From contig JAQMWT010000366.1 of NCBI GenBank assembly GCA_029834535.1, positions 271,501 through 335,500 on the forward strand: a stretch of 64,000 nt of DNA. The letters are read 5' to 3'. A program made the position numbers and the translations under genes. The notes under the pieces were generated by a model. The model ran no database searches. It saw only the letters and a program-made list of their open reading frames with translations, and was not told the origin of the DNA. Of the stretch, positions 25,550 to 45,888 are shown in pieces; within the stretch, counting starts at the first letter, position 1; every line of letters starts with the position of its first letter. This DNA comes from Chrysophaeum taylorii (lineage: Eukaryota; Sar; Pelagophyceae; Pelagomonadales; Pelagomonadaceae).

Positions 25550-26190
25550 AGCAGCAAGGAGATTCGGCGGCGGCGGTTTTTTTGTCGAAAGACGTCGCGA
25601 AAGAAGAAGAAGAAAATGTCTCGGCTGCGTTCGGCGCGAAGCTTGCGAAGCTCGAAGAGCGGATGCGGGAAATCGAAGAGCGCGAGGCCCGGGTGTCAGC
25701 TTTGGAACGGACGGTCGAGGCGCGGCTCGCGGTGCTGGAGAAGCAACAGAAGACCGAAGCCGACGCGATCGTCGCTCGGGTCGAAGGCGAGGTCGCGGAG
25801 CGCGTCGGCAGGCAACTGGACGAACACTCGGTCGCTATCGAGGCCAAGCTCCAGCTGGCGGTAGCAGAGGAGTGGGTCGCGGTCGAGGACGAGGCGTCGG
25901 GTTCGACGTACTACTTCAACGAGCGGACGGGCGAGAGTAGGTGGGAGGCTCCTGAAAAGTTCGCGGGGAAGAGCCTCCCGTGGCTCGAGTATTGGGACGA
26001 GGCGGTGGGAGCGAGGTACTGGTACAATACGGAGACGCACGAGGCATCGTGGACGTCGCCGTCGGACAAGACCCCGAATAAGACTGCGTCGCCCCTCGAA
26101 AACGAGTGGTCCGCCATCATCGACCCGAGGACCGGCGCGGAGACGTGGGTGCACGACCTCACGGGGGAGCGGTGGTCTTGTTCTACCTAG
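21334..26190 (+). CDS. Large IQ-motif and WW-domain protein (1618 aa)
   Basis: This is a single uninterrupted frame from ATG ATG at 21334. Residues about 300-855 are extremely Arg/Ala-rich and carry many IQ-like motifs of the form A-x-R-I-Q-x-x-x-R-G, which normally bind calmodulin or myosin-type light chains. Within this stretch four copies of a 26-residue unit (R-F-Q-A-A-E-R-T-R-V-A-A-T-R-I-Q) are almost identical. Residues about 880-1450 are acidic and disordered, with poly-Ser and poly-Gln runs. A coiled coil follows at about 1430-1505. The C-terminus has two WW domains (about 1511-1580, with YYFNERTGESRWEAP and YWYNTETHEASWTSP) and a third degenerate one. The family function suggests a cytoskeletal or ciliary scaffold, but this is inference. 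The last 8 bases overlap the end of the convergent ATAD3-like gene. Confidence 0.88.
22790..23117 (+). repeat. 78-bp tandem repeat encoding IQ units, four copies
   Basis: Four near-identical 78-bp units, each containing CGATTCCAAGCTGCTGAGCG and GTGTCGCAGCGACGCGAATC, lie in frame inside the IQ/WW gene. Each encodes one 26-residue IQ unit. Near-identity at synonymous positions points to recent unit duplication or homogenisation. Confidence 0.9.
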
Positions 26191-28051
26191 GAGCGTCTTC
26201 TAATTTCCATTTTAGAGCCTGGTGCCAGAGGTCGGCGGTGAGGCGGAGGCGGCCGTCGAGGCGGTGGTGGCTGTGGACAACCCCCTGGACCGAGAGGATG
26301 AGTTTCGAAATTTCCCGACCCGAGAAGCCGCGGGTACGCGGGACGAGCGCGTCCAGCTCCCCGTCGACGTCGATATCGGCGTGGATTTTTTGAAACGCGG
26401 CGCGGAAATTGAGGTGGAGGAGGTCGCGGCGGCCGGGGGGGTCGGGGAGGGGGAGCTCGATGACGTCGTCGAGGCGGTCGAGGACTGCCGGATCGAGGTC
26501 TGAAGGTCTGTTCGTTGCCAAGACGAGGACGAGAGAGTAGGAGGGATCAGAGGTGTGGAACAAAAAGGCGTTGAGCGCCGAGATGGCAGCCTCGGAGAGT
26601 CCCGGTCGCGAGCGGTCGGGAAGTGCAGCTTCGGCTTCGTCGACGAAGAGAAGGAGGCCTCGTCTCGACGATTTCTTGGCCCAATCAAACAGCTCGTGGA
26701 GCTTGGTCGTCGCGGCGGCGCCGAGGGGCCCGGCATCGCCGCCGCTCATCATAGCCCACGCGAGGCCAGACTCTTTTGCCAAGCGCCGCGCGACCATCGT
26801 CTTCCCGGTCCCGGGTGGACCGTAGAGCAGGACGTGTCGGAGAGGCGCCCGGAGACGGCGCGCTCCGGCGATGGCCGAAGCGACGCCCTCGAGTCTCTCG
26901 CGGACCTGCGGCCGCAGCACGACGCCAAGGAGGAGGGTGTTTCTTTTTGGTCCAAAAAAATTCAGCGACGGCCAGAAGTTGGCTTCGCGGAGCAGCGACG
27001 GCCGCGTCAGCCAGGTCGCGAGGAGAGATCGCGTCAGCCTCGCAGACTCTCGCGTCGCGAAGTAACCGGCGACTATTGCCGCGAGGCCGAGGACCAGGCG
27101 CCGGAGCCGCGCGAGATCGGCGCGTGCGGCTGCGGCGAAGACCTTTGCGACGGCGGCGATCGCGTCGTTGAGCGTGCGGCGGCGCTCGGCGCCGCGGGCT
27201 TCGATCATTCGAGTCGCGACGTCTTCGTTGCGTCGTTCGGTTTCGGCCTTTTGCCTCTCCGCCTCGCGCGCGGCCTCGACGGCCGTCCGCGTTTTGAGCT
27301 CCTCGCGCTGCGTGGCGACCCTGAGGTCGACCTCGAGCCGCGCGAGGGCCGTCTCTTGCTTCGCTTCCGAAATTCTCGCCGCCGTCCGCGCCTCGGCCGC
27401 GGTCGCGTCCGCTAGCGCCGCCTCCCTCATCACAGCCTTCACTTTTTCCCGCGCCTCCAAGAGATCGTGCGCGCGTCGGAGCGTCGCGTTCCGGGTTTCG
27501 AACTCGTGGCGATCAACGGCTTTTCTCCTCGCAGCCCGCGCCGCCTCCACCTCCGCCGTCTTCTCCATAGTTCGCGATTTCTCCTCTTCGAGACGCCTCT
27601 TCGGCGCGAGCTGGGAGGCCGTCTCCCAGTCCTCCCGGAAAATCTGTTCCTCCAGCGGCGCGAACTTTCGCTCCAAGCGATCCATCGTCCTTCGCATCGC
27701 GTCCGCGTCTGCCCTCGCCGTTCTCGAATCGCGCGAAACTCGTTTCAGGGCCGCCAGCCCGTGCGCGAACAGCACCGACTGGTCGACCACCAGACGCGTC
27801 AGCGGCGCACCGGGGACGCGTTCCTCGCGCGTCACCGACTCGCCGTACAGATCCGCGATCACCTCCTCGGCCTCGCGCGCGAGGACGCCGTGGTGAACGC
27901 GCCCGCGCACGGTGTCGTGGGTGAGCTCGAAGCTCCTGATCGGCAGCCGCCGCACGGCCTCCACCGACTTTGAAAGCTCGGGGGTCTCCACCACGACCTC
28001 GTAGGCCTGCCACCCGAGCGCGAAGGCCTGCGACACCAACAACAACAACAT
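26183..28051 (-). CDS. ATAD3-like mitochondrial AAA+ ATPase (622 aa)
   Basis: The domain order matches ATAD3. There is a long Arg/Glu/Ala-rich coiled coil (about 105-300), a membrane segment (about 318-332), and an AAA+ ATPase domain with Walker A GPPGTGKT (411-418), Walker B LLLFVDEAEA (466-475) and a sensor segment ATNRPSDLD (512-520). ATAD3 proteins sit in the inner mitochondrial membrane and support nucleoid organisation and lipid handling. The segment around Walker B (DWAKKSSRRGLLLFVDEAEA) is characteristic of this family rather than of other AAA proteins. The N-terminus is hydrophobic (MLLLLVSQAFALGW), which may be a targeting or membrane segment. The ATG at 28051 is the first in frame. 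The stop overlaps the convergent IQ/WW gene, and the F-box gene starts 125 bases away on the other strand. Confidence 0.9.
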   Translation of the reverse strand: MLLLLVSQAFALGWQAYEVVVETPELSKSVEAVRRLPIRSFELTHDTVRGRVHHGVLAREAEEVIADLYGESVTREERVPGAPLTRLVVDQSVLFAHGLAALKRVSRDSRTARADADAMRRTMDRLERKFAPLEEQIFREDWETASQLAPKRRLEEEKSRTMEKTAEVEAARAARRKAVDRHEFETRNATLRRAHDLLEAREKVKAVMREAALADATAAEARTAARISEAKQETALARLEVDLRVATQREELKTRTAVEAAREAERQKAETERRNEDVATRMIEARGAERRRTLNDAIAAVAKVFAAAARADLARLRRLVLGLAAIVAGYFATRESARLTRSLLATWLTRPSLLREANFWPSLNFFGPKRNTLLLGVVLRPQVRERLEGVASAIAGARRLRAPLRHVLLYGPPGTGKTMVARRLAKESGLAWAMMSGGDAGPLGAAATTKLHELFDWAKKSSRRGLLLFVDEAEAALPDRSRPGLSEAAISALNAFLFHTSDPSYSLVLVLATNRPSDLDPAVLDRLDDVIELPLPDPPGRRDLLHLNFRAAFQKIHADIDVDGELDALVPRTRGFSGREISKLILSVQGVVHSHHRLDGRLRLTADLWHQALKWKLEDAPR

Positions 28052-40312: not shown

Positions 40313-42721
40313 TTACTGTTGAAGACGACCACCAGAAGAAGAAGAACGAATCCGGCGTTGGAGGACGAGGGAGAGGCGTGCTCGTTGAATGGCCGCCTTG
40401 TCCGGGAGGAACTCGTGCGTCGAAAAGTGCGCGGCCACGCGGGGGAGGTACCGGGAGACGAGGGCGTGCTTCCTGGCGCAGAGGCGGAGGAGCTCGTCGA
40501 GGGTGGCGTTGTAGGCCGCCTCGAGGTGGGCGAGCTCGTGGACGGGGTAGGCCTCTTTTCTCGCCAAGACGAAAGCTCGGAGGTTGAGTCGGTTGTTGAC
40601 AAAGTCCCGGTGCGGTTTTGGCTCGGTGCGGAGCGTGTCTCTCGCGAGCTGGAGGTGCGAAGTCCGCGCCGCCTTGGGCACGCCGAGGAAGCGCCAGAGC
40701 GCGGCCAAAACAGCGGAACCCGAGTACAAGAAGCAGGCCAAGTCGAGGTCGTCCGACCTCAGAAATTTCTTCAACCTTCGCATCGTTGCCTTCTCGCCGC
40801 CCGTTAAGGGCGGGTCGAGGACGTCGGCGACGGCTCGAATTCCAGCGCGGAGCGCGTCGATGCACGACGGGTCCTCGTTCCTTCGCATCTCGGCTTCCGC
40901 CTTCAGGATCGCCGCGACGACTCGCGGCGTTCGACGCTCGGTCTTCAGAAACAAAGACCACAAGTTGTCTTCGTCGGGGACGGCGAGGAAATGGACGCGG
41001 CATTCCGACGCGAGGACCAGATCCGCGTAGCACAGTCTTTTCGTCCTATCGAGCTTGACAGAATCGACCAGAAAAGCCAATCCCGGCGGAAGCGCGGCGT
41101 CGCCTTTAACGATCGCGTCGTCGTCGTCGTCGTCGTCGTATCTCATGTAGGCGGCGGCGATAAATCCGACCAGCACGCGCACAGTTTCTAGCGCAGCGGC
41201 CGATCGCGGCAACTCCGTTGCCGCCAAGTCAGGGTCCACGGAATCGACGAGTTCTCTGAACGCGCCTTTAACGACGCACAGCGTCGGAATCGCGCGAACG
41301 ACTCGTGCCAGAAGTTTCAGATCAAAGCATCCAAGTTGTTGTTGTTGTTGTCTAGAAGAAGATGGCGGTCCAAACCCTTTCCGCGCGTCGACGGCCCAGA
41401 ACGCGCCTTCTTCTCCGACCACCAACGGCGGGAGAGAGTCCATTTTCTTTTTCTCGTCGTCGCTACCTACGACGACGTCGCGCGGCCGCTTAAGCTTGGC
41501 CGCTTCGGTGTCTGATATGTGTTCGTGGAGGTAGTCGAGGGCGCGGGTGCCGCCGGTCCCCACGACATCGTTGCCCCCTCCTCCTGGCTCGACGACGTAG
41601 CGCTTAACCATTTGGAGGTGTCGCCACCTGAAATCGAGGACGAGATCGACGCACCGGTCGTATCTTTCGCCGAGTTCGTCGCCGCCGCCGCCGCGCGCCA
41701 CCAGATCCCGGATGCTCCGGATTGAGTGGAGGAAATCCCGGTGTTCGCAGGGCATCGACTTTTCGAAGGTGCGGAGCAGCGACCGGAGGTCCTTGTTCGT
41801 GTTGGATATGCCCAGAAAAGCGTCGAGAACGGGAAGAAGCGTCGACATCGCGCCCGAAGGACCGGGGTAAGTTCTGGATTCGCCTTGTAGAAAAAAGGTC
41901 TTCTCGGACATAAAAGGACGGAGCCGATGGAAGAAAAAATACGCGTCGACGATGGGGCCGCCCCCGTCGTCTGCGAACATCAACGGCAAGCACTCTCGAA
42001 CCACGCGCGAAAACGAGTCTTCTATTCGTCTCAAAACTGAAACCAAATCCTCTCGACCGCAAAAATAACTGTGGATGGCGCAGACGACGGGTGCCGCCGC
42101 AGCTTCGATAACGAGGTGTGTCTTGAAAAACCACTCCTCGTCCACCAAACCCGTAAACCTCCGAAGCATCCGAACGTTCTCCATCGAAATTCCTGATGTC
42201 GGATTCCTGAGTTCCCAGTTGTACAGCACGCACCCCGCGTAGTCCAGCATGGGTTGCCGCCCCAAAACCCTTGCGCAACTCGCGAGGGCGGGACCCACAG
42301 GACCGATATCCTCGTCTCTAATAGAGCACGCGACGTAGCAAAGTAGAGAAAACGAACACTCGAGCTCCTCCTGTTCTAACGCCGAACTTTCCAAAAATAT
42401 CTTCGGGCACCGCGCGAAGTCTCCCCGATGCGCCAGAACGATATCCTTCACGCGCCCCTCGACGATCGCGCACGGCAGCTCGTCCCCGATATCGCCGAGA
42501 AACTGGAGATCCGGATGTACCGGCCGCGCGAGGGGTGGGGCGCGCGGCAAGAACCCCCGCGTCGCAACCTCCCACAGCCCGTCTTTCCTTTCGGTTCTTG
42601 GGGAAACTCCCTTCCTCCCTCCTCTTCCTCTACCTCTACCGCGGGGGATCAACAGGTACGCCAGGCACCACGCCGCGGCAACAACGACCAAGACGACGAC
42701 GCCACGCCATGCGAGAATCAT
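40313..42721 (-). CDS. Tandem indoleamine 2,3-dioxygenase-like protein (802 aa)
   Basis: Residues about 80-412 match indoleamine 2,3-dioxygenase, the heme enzyme that opens the tryptophan indole ring to form N-formylkynurenine. Visible hallmarks are LDYAGCVLYNWELRNP, a serine/glycine-rich SGAMSTLLPVLDAFLGI, the HRDFL segment (327-331), the proximal heme ligand in FRWRHLQMVKRY (H368) and the GTGGT motif (388-392). Residues about 465-795 repeat the same plan: LWRFLGV, HRDF (704-707) and AYNATLDELLRLCARKHALV. In this second half the ligand position aligns with K751 (His is at 752) and GTGGT is missing. The length is twice the usual 400. A hydrophobic segment (1-24) precedes the first domain and may be a membrane anchor or targeting signal. 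The first domain is probably active and the second probably structural or regulatory (inference). Confidence 0.88.
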   Translation of the reverse strand: MILAWRGVVVLVVVAAAWCLAYLLIPRGRGRGRGGRKGVSPRTERKDGLWEVATRGFLPRAPPLARPVHPDLQFLGDIGDELPCAIVEGRVKDIVLAHRGDFARCPKIFLESSALEQEELECSFSLLCYVACSIRDEDIGPVGPALASCARVLGRQPMLDYAGCVLYNWELRNPTSGISMENVRMLRRFTGLVDEEWFFKTHLVIEAAAAPVVCAIHSYFCGREDLVSVLRRIEDSFSRVVRECLPLMFADDGGGPIVDAYFFFHRLRPFMSEKTFFLQGESRTYPGPSGAMSTLLPVLDAFLGISNTNKDLRSLLRTFEKSMPCEHRDFLHSIRSIRDLVARGGGGDELGERYDRCVDLVLDFRWRHLQMVKRYVVEPGGGGNDVVGTGGTRALDYLHEHISDTEAAKLKRPRDVVVGSDDEKKKMDSLPPLVVGEEGAFWAVDARKGFGPPSSSRQQQQQLGCFDLKLLARVVRAIPTLCVVKGAFRELVDSVDPDLAATELPRSAAALETVRVLVGFIAAAYMRYDDDDDDDAIVKGDAALPPGLAFLVDSVKLDRTKRLCYADLVLASECRVHFLAVPDEDNLWSLFLKTERRTPRVVAAILKAEAEMRRNEDPSCIDALRAGIRAVADVLDPPLTGGEKATMRRLKKFLRSDDLDLACFLYSGSAVLAALWRFLGVPKAARTSHLQLARDTLRTEPKPHRDFVNNRLNLRAFVLARKEAYPVHELAHLEAAYNATLDELLRLCARKHALVSRYLPRVAAHFSTHEFLPDKAAIQRARLSLVLQRRIRSSSSGGRLQQ

Positions 42722-43639: not shown

Positions 43640-44260
43640 TGCGGGGGGGTTGTTTGTTTGTCTTTAAATGTCGACTGCTAAGAGGGGTGTGTGTGTGTGG
43701 GGGGGGGGCATGAAGGATGTGGGTGGGTTTGTGGGGTATGAGGGATGTGCCTGACGGGCGGAGATAAGTACGCGGGACCTAGTCGGGGTCATCGCCGAGG
43801 CGTGGGGCAGGCGAAGAGAGGACGGGCCCCGCCCGTTGGTCGCTTGTCTGTCTGTCTTTAAATGTCGACTGCTAAGAGGGGGGTGTGTGTGGGGAGCGTG
43901 AAGGATGTGGGTGGGTTTGTGGGGTATGAGGGATGAGCCTGACGGGCGGAGATAAGTACGCGGGACCTAGTCGGGGTCATCGCCGAGGCGTGGGGCAGGC
44001 GAAGAGAGGACGGGCCCCGCCCGTAGGTCGTTTGTCTGTCTGTCTTTAAATGTCGACTGCTAAGAGGGGGGTGAGTGTGGGGAGCGTGAAGTACGTGGGT
44101 CTGTCTTTAATTGTCGACTGCTAAGAGGGGGGTGTGTGTGGGGAGCATGAAGGATGTGGGTGGGTTTGTGGGGTATGAGGGATGTGCCTGACGGGCGGAG
44201 ATAAGTACGATAAGTACGCTGTCTTTAAATGTCGACTCCTAAGAGGGGGGGGTGGGAGTA
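43640..44260 (+). repeat. Tandem array of the 190-bp dispersed repeat
   Basis: Two nearly complete units (about 43653-43842 and 43843-44034) and three shortened ones (to about 44255) contain CTTTAAATGTCGACTGCTAA, ATAAGTACGCGGGACCTAG and GAGGACGGGCCCCGCCCG, as in the 1.4-2.4 kb family. All are in the same orientation. The array ends about 170 bases before the phosphoglycerate mutase ATG, separated from it by an AAAAC repeat (about 44307-44346). Confidence 0.85.
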
Positions 44261-44427
44261 CGCTGTCTGTCAAAAGTGCCTGTGGTTGTTTTTTTTTTAT
44301 TTTTTTTTCAAAACAAAACAAAACAAAACAAAACAAAACAAAAAAAAAGGAAAATAGAATCTGGGGCAGCAGTTTTTGGGGTCAGTTTTTTGCGAGATTC
44401 GTCGTCGCAGCAGCAGCAGCAGCAAAA

Positions 44428-45799
44428 ATGGCGCCGCCGACGAGGACGCGCGTGTCGCTTCTGCTGATGCGGCACGGGCAGTCGCGATGGAACGCGCGGA
44501 ACCGGTTCACGGGGTGGACCGACGTCCGTCTGACGCCGCAGGGGGAGCGCGAGGCCTGGGCCGCCGGAAGAATTATAGGATCGCAAAAGATCGAATTGAG
44601 GCACGTCTACACGTCGGAACTGAGTCGAGCGAAGAAGACGACAGAATTGGTGTTGCAGTCGCTCGAGCAGACGCCGCCGGTCGAGACGTCGTGGCGACTG
44701 AACGAGCGACACTACGGCGCTCTGACCGGACTCCACAAGACGGAAACTATGGAGGAGATGGGGGCCGAGAGAGTCCTGGCGATGCGACGGGGTTCGTTGA
44801 GCCCGCCCCTCATGGACGAGACACACCCGATGTGGCCGCACATCGTGGGGAGGAAGGAGGCGTTTTTCGCGTCGGGCGAGCTGCCGCGGGCCGAGTCTAT
44901 TCCTCAGGCGAGGGAGAGGGTCGAGCTCTTTTGGCGCCGCGTCATTATGGAGAAATTGCGAGAGCTCGTGGAGGGGGGGCGAGGCGGCGGGTTGCTCGTG
45001 GTGAGCCACCTCCACACGATCCGGCTTTTGATTTCTGAACTCGACGGCCTCGCGCGCGAGGCCGAGTTGGCTCTCGACGTGCCTACGGCCGTGCCCCTTC
45101 TCTACGAGGTCGACAGGCTCGACTTCCACGCGCCGCCGCGAAAAAACGACGGGAGCAACGTGACGCTGGTCAAGGGTCGGTGGTTGGGGGAGACCAAGCT
45201 AACGTCGATGCGGATTTCCGCGATACGGAGCTTGCTGCTGAGACGGAGGGGTCTACTCTACGAACTCTTGCCTCACTTGCCCGATCCCGTCCAGAAGATA
45301 TTCATGCAGGGCGAGTCCTTTCGCCGCGAAGCGCGGGATCACGCCCGAAAAACTCTCCAGACCTCGGTCCAGGTAATAATGTCGCGCGACCAACAAGTCG
45401 CCGCGCTCCGATCGCTCTTCGCGGCCCGACCTTGGGTCGGCGTCGTCGACCAAACGTTTTGCGATGCCTGCGCGCGCGCGCTCCACGCGGTCTCGGACGA
45501 AGGTCCTCCGCGCCGCAAGTACGACGGCCTGCGCTCTGGGTGGCACCTCAATAATTATTTGGCAGATCCCGTAAGCGTCGAATCGTTTCCGTCGTTCGCT
45601 CGACTCGTCGCCGTCGCTGCCTACCTCGCCTGGATCCAAAACAATGGTGCCGAATTCCTCCCCCCCCTCGAGTACGAGTTCGCCAAGGACATCGCCAAAA
45701 AGGGCCTCCTCTCGGACGACGAGATCCTTTCCGACCTCGCACCCCCCGACTGCGCGGCGGAATACCCCCGCGCCGCCGCCTTCTCCGAACCCCTCCATT

Positions 45800-45836
<37 letters not shown>

Positions 45837-45888
45837 AGGAGTCGGGAATCCCTCTACGCCGGCGCTGCGCTCCCTCACCAGTGATTGA
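44428..45888 (+). CDS. Cofactor-dependent phosphoglycerate mutase with long C-terminal extension (486 aa)
   Basis: Residues 1-230 match 2,3-bisphosphoglycerate-dependent phosphoglycerate mutase, which interconverts 3- and 2-phosphoglycerate in glycolysis. Visible are the phospho-acceptor His in LLLMRHGQS (H16), the RFTGWTDVRLTPQGE segment, NERHYGALTG (E93) and the second catalytic His in VVSHLHTIR (H194), where the usual AHGNSLR has changed to SHLHTIR. The ATG at 44428 has a good context (AAAAATGGCG), and the frame upstream is repeat-derived. The extra 250 residues have no domain I recognise. They contain two Cys in FCDACARALH and end in an eleven-His run from a CAT repeat. No organellar presequence is obvious. 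Confidence 0.88.

Follow-up and report, generated by a model that had tools for sequence, protein, structure and literature searches.

A two-domain indoleamine 2,3-dioxygenase gene of Chrysophaeum taylorii with a complete first and a degenerate second domain

The window considered here, i.e. the whole stretch of DNA that was analysed, comprises 64,000 nucleotides of the pelagophyte Chrysophaeum taylorii (assembly GCA_029834535.1, contig JAQMWT010000366.1, forward-strand positions 271,501 to 335,500). Its minus strand carries an open reading frame of 802 codons (42721-40316, followed by the stop codon at 40315-40313), which starts with the ATG at 42721, contains no internal stop and has an in-frame stop upstream of the ATG. 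With the Pfam profile of indoleamine 2,3-dioxygenases (IDOs), PF01231, the encoded protein is matched in two stretches (155 bits). The uninterrupted frame and the two matched stretches thus bear out what a first-pass annotation, made from the letters alone, had claimed for this gene, namely a chain of double length with two IDO domains in tandem. The limits of the second domain derive from a profile alignment spanning aa 444-763, the remainder having been taken from predicted helices (Table 1).

Table 1. Features of the tandem IDO gene, in window coordinates
Feature	Position in window	Strand	Basis
Tandem IDO/pseudo-IDO ORF, 802 aa + stop	40313..42721	(-)	Pfam, upstream in-frame stop, codon-position GC
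Hydrophobic N-terminal segment, aa 7-25, then basic RGRGRGRGGRK	42647..42703	(-)	Kyte-Doolittle, predicted helix
Domain 1, IDO, about aa 53-410	41492..42565	(-)	Pfam, external-IDO HMM, pocket table, full-length model
H368 codon, proximal heme ligand position (human H346)	41618..41620	(-)	MAFFT alignment
GTGGT, aa 388-392, JK-loop motif of domain 1	41546..41560	(-)	Sequence
Linker, aa 411-444	41390..41491	(-)	Full-length model, pLDDT <50 over aa 430-489
Domain 2, degenerate IDO (pseudo-domain), about aa 445-790	40352..41389	(-)	Pfam, HMM, hhalign, model, hydrophobicity
K751 codon, at the site of the heme ligand in domain 2 and followed by the H752 codon	40469..40471	(-)	Alignment

The chain opens with a hydrophobic segment reaching a Kyte-Doolittle mean of 2.74 over 19 residues, and the full-length model predicts a helix for aa 2-24. 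An N-terminal hydrophobic segment of at least 1.9 is found in none of 95 external IDO ORFs. Together with the adjoining basic stretch, the segment is likely to act as a membrane anchor or targeting signal. Domain 1 is complete at the catalytic positions compared. Submitted alone, aa 1-467 score 134.3 bits against PF01231, above the curated cut-off of 26, and an HMM built from 52 IDOs, left after dereplication of 95 external ORFs between 330 and 560 aa in length, assigns 170 bits to the best-scoring domain, taken as domain 1; NCBIfam, searched with the same 467 residues, yields only a match to tryptophan dioxygenase (TDO) at E 0.14. The catalytic set is present with F198, H202, F263, R268, S289, F364/R365 (FxxR), H368 and GTGGT, so that the annotated retention of heme-ligand His and glycine-rich motif in the first half was correct both in sequence and in alignment. 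A first phmmer alignment had suggested loss of the substrate Arg, with D at the position of human R231, which was ruled out as the paralog alignment places R268 there. Of 81 columns in which 22 or more of 24 external IDOs share the same residue, 51 are kept. The full-length model matches IDO1 chains with TMt 0.71-0.81 among the 50 rows listed, a match which appears to belong to the confidently modelled domain 1. Most likely, therefore, domain 1 works as a Trp dioxygenase, probably anchored in a membrane.

Recognition of the second half requires more sensitive comparison. Against PF01231, aa 468-802 alone score 24.7 bits (E 1.2e-5), just below the curated cut-off of 26. The HMM of external IDOs gives 13.1 bits for domain 2, with 1.4 bits for the best of 200 shuffles. 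Using hhalign, aa 441-802 align to 27 IDO rows over 299 columns with a probability of 96.9, an E value of 1.7e-10 and a score of 79.2, compared with 24.8 for the best of 100 shuffled sequences and 14.5 for the reversed sequence. When the reference consists of 23 external IDOs only, domain 2 scores 62.8 (best of 50 shuffles 26.0) and, hence, domain 1 is not the source of its IDO match. Additionally, the hydrophobicity of domain 2 follows that of the family in register, with r 0.478 over 328 columns and a maximum of 0.135 over 60 slid registers. Chance similarity is ruled out by the shuffle, reversal and slid-register controls, and the assignment of the second half to the IDO family, as originally annotated, is upheld by the profile searches: domain 2 is a true, very diverged IDO. 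A search of the PDB with the single sequence of aa 468-802 gave no IDO up to E 10; its three caspase matches (E 0.24-0.72) were taken as chance. The same residues obtained no match in NCBIfam and, besides the gene itself, just one 32-residue stretch at E 0.09 in the own genome. Viral contigs, scanned separately with aa 468-802 and with domain 1, yielded no relatives.

An AlphaFold2 model of domain 2, for which domain 1 and 24 external IDOs supplied the 25 further rows of the alignment, is of moderate quality (mean pLDDT 68, pTM 0.66). Foldseek matches this model in the PDB to IDO1 chains in all 50 rows listed, with a best E value of 2.6e-6 and TMq 0.54-0.67. These matches argue against a different fold for domain 2, which is regarded as ruled out at the level of the model; the agreement is not fully independent, however, since IDO rows went into the model. 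When the whole chain is modelled, confidence is high for domain 1 and poor for domain 2, hardly any external row covering the latter, and contact between the halves is therefore unpredicted.

Although its fold is recognizable, domain 2 has, by sequence, lost the active site with its heme and substrate contacts. Residue equivalences were established in human IDO1 numbering with three MAFFT modes, which agree at the positions listed except for gap placement at GTGG. Human F163, position 167, F226, R231, R343 (which we take to be a heme-propionate contact) and H346 correspond to F198, H202, F263, R268, R365 and H368 in domain 1, and to L587, F591, T646, K651, C748 and K751 in domain 2. Human S263 corresponds to S289 in domain 1 and to a gap in domain 2, where the S263 loop is missing. 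In the human enzyme, the carboxylate of Trp pairs with R231, ammonium and carboxylate groups are bound by GTGG and G262, and the pocket is lined by F163, F226, L234, V130 and Y126, roles of H346, S167 and G262/A264 being described as well (PMC5700043). Y126 and E171 are retained in domain 2 as Y565 and E595. The GTGG columns are gapped in two MAFFT modes and filled by the unrelated A777-R780 in the third, which confirms the reported absence of GTGGT from the second half. Likewise, the earlier ungapped placement of Lys at the ligand position with His adjoining was right, as all three modes agree on it. In total, domain 2 keeps 23 of the 81 conserved columns and is gapped in 14, and several of its loops are deleted.

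From these data, we consider it fairly probable that domain 1 works as a heme dioxygenase, with domain 2 retained beside it as a partner pseudo-domain devoid of heme. In a single polypeptide, an N-terminal hydrophobic anchor would be followed by a complete IDO domain and, across a flexible linker, by a second IDO fold. Domain 1 would bind heme via H368 and, most likely, convert L-tryptophan or a related indole into N-formylkynurenine and so supply the kynurenine route to NAD. Domain 2 would have kept the helical core and given up the usual heme binding through loss of the heme ligand, the Arg at position 343, the carboxylate-binding Arg, distal Phe and His, the DE-loop Ser and the JK-loop motif, and presumably carries no heme. 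Non-catalytic in this state, it would most likely stabilise, position or regulate domain 1 and may thus be its partner in structure or regulation. A heme-free IDO fold is credible, since human IDO1 can be obtained in the apo form, to which GAPDH binds (PMC12329532), and since IDO1 and TDO2 are described as having an inactive state that lacks heme (PMC11561238). A more specific version, in which a membrane-anchored IDO has a pseudo-IDO without heme built in as an allosteric or stabilising subunit and so forms a pseudo-heterodimer within one chain, is possible and is put forward tentatively.

Alternatively, domain 2 might be a relic, i.e. a neighbouring or duplicated IDO that was fused to domain 1 and is drifting without function. 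Its strong divergence, the loss of most functional residues and the several loop deletions would all fit such a course, and the activity could be covered by the two other IDO genes of the genome. The reading frame, however, points the other way. At the base composition of domain 2, about ten stops are expected per 362 codons and none is observed, whereas each of 2000 base shuffles contains at least one, a generous comparison given that the other five frames hold 8, 6, 2, 6 and 8 stops, the frame with two being antisense. Codon usage is intact as well, the own frame of domain 2 scoring 0.338, against 0.167 for the runner-up among the six frames, after training on the two single-domain IDO genes of the genome and the neighbouring phosphatase ORF, read in frame. 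At the same time, buried residues follow the family pattern in register. With no stop in 362 codons at an identity of 25% or less, the frame of domain 2 seems to have been maintained while its sequence diverged, which makes a drifting relic rather unlikely.

It is quite improbable that domain 2 resembles the IDO-derived myoglobins of abalone in still binding heme, with K751 or H752 as ligand, and in acting as a sensor or oxygen binder. Lys at the ligand position with His beside it, and the precedent of IDO-derived myoglobins devoid of Trp activity (PMC4191572), speak for it, whereas H752 lies one residue off the ligand position in a helix that is predicted to be continuous, R343 is replaced by C748, and the S263 loop and GTGG are lost or unrecognizable. 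That the halves are two separate genes or proteins, produced from a transcript ending in or near the linker or by a start of domain 2 at M427, is very improbable: this Met lies shortly before domain 2, in the context AAAATGG, but the halves are joined without intervening stop or frameshift and resemble each other in GC content by codon position.

As to the origin of the second domain, internal duplication followed by loss of activity in one half had been proposed. The loss agrees with the missing active-site residues of the second half; the duplication itself has not been borne out. Identity of domain 2 does not exceed 25%, most scores (including those from single sequences) fail to favour domain 1 over other IDOs as its relative, and a tree with long branches does not decide whether the two domains are each other's nearest relatives (p-AU 0.255). 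Gene fusion is as possible as internal duplication. The internal ATG of M427, located in the linker at window position 41443, may then be the old start of a formerly separate gene.

None of 100 IDO ORFs in the collected loci, the own single-domain gene C314 included, exceeds 470 aa; these ORFs were taken with flanks of at most 3 kb from a genome scan limited to the best 80 of 217 matches, the only eukaryotic genome being the own one, and they are not 100 independent genes as several viral contigs were counted twice. Single-domain IDOs such as IDO1 and the bacterial enzymes of PF01231 share with domain 1 the heme His, FxxR, carboxylate Arg, DE-loop Ser and GTGGT, and their fold is matched by the full-length model. 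The algal protein differs in being twice as long, in carrying a further IDO domain, which is degenerate, and in the hydrophobic segment at its N terminus. Mammalian IDO2 resembles domain 2 as an IDO paralog proposed to work without significant catalysis and suggested to be a sort of pseudoenzyme (PMC8097162), but is a separate protein, whereas domain 2 shares one chain with an intact IDO and no longer keeps the heme ligand at its position. Similarly, the IDO-like myoglobins of vetigastropods are derived from IDO and have lost Trp activity, yet they bind oxygen reversibly via heme (PMC4191572), and domain 2 is without ligand and pocket. None of these systems is a fused pair of active and inactive domains. 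A double, tandem or pseudo IDO was not reported in the literature searched, whose scope left out most subscription journals and all protein-architecture databases.

IDO1 is described as monomeric (PMC4191572), and its heme-free form has drawn interest. A natural chain of an intact IDO and a heme-less copy would offer a test of whether a heme-free IDO fold regulates or stabilises an active one; if the proposed partnership is true, the IDO fold can be retained for a non-heme role. Such a chain would also bear on the first step of NAD synthesis in an alga where TDO and NadA were not found. The own genome (70.8 Mb, 697 contigs) contains three IDO loci, namely C314 (213 bits), the gene described here (132 bits) and C24 (127 bits). 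As C314 and C24 each encode a single-domain IDO in which His and GTGG are retained, the enzyme of the pathway may be another than domain 1. The C24 protein is divergent, with His, Arg and GTGG kept, Ala in place of Y126 and Pro at position 167, and hydrophobic stretches occur close to its N terminus. Kynureninase (367 bits, the matched stretch containing one stop, perhaps an intron) and 3-HAO (136 bits) are present; the absence of TDO and NadA refers to a six-frame search, which may miss split genes. With 84 matches to chlorophyll-binding antenna proteins, the organism is most likely a photosynthetic alga. This inventory fits that of the pelagophyte Aureococcus anophagefferens, likewise a photosynthetic alga, for which kynurenine-route genes but no aspartate-route genes are described (PMC4217691). 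According to the same source, IDOs of two of three branches, into which the Aureococcus IDO falls, have shown very low Trp activity where tested, which weighs against the favoured reading. The comparison with Aureococcus is by description, not by sequence, and the parts of PMC4217691 available do not mention a double-domain form.

Several observations on other IDO loci and on the surroundings of the gene were made in passing. IDO genes occur on 11 distinct IMG/VR contigs filed as viral, of up to 511 kb (L006-L012 and L093-L103, seven contigs being represented twice), and all seven IDO proteins examined from such contigs carry the heme His and GTGGT. Ten flanking ORFs scanned on these contigs comprise a thiamine-pyrophosphate enzyme (L099), a weak PspA match below the cut-off (L102) and eight without Pfam family. 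In a record of Gammaproteobacteria bacterium TMED104 (L056), the IDO match falls into two stretches of the same frame (1456-1845 and 1849-2643) with one stop codon between them. Within the window, an ORF for an ATAD3-like AAA ATPase is found at 26183-28051 on the minus strand (PF00004 85 bits, PF12037 26.6 bits), and a unit of 188 bp is repeated 2.4 times with 93% matches at 43650-44100, just before the histidine phosphatase ORF at 44182-45888 on the plus strand.
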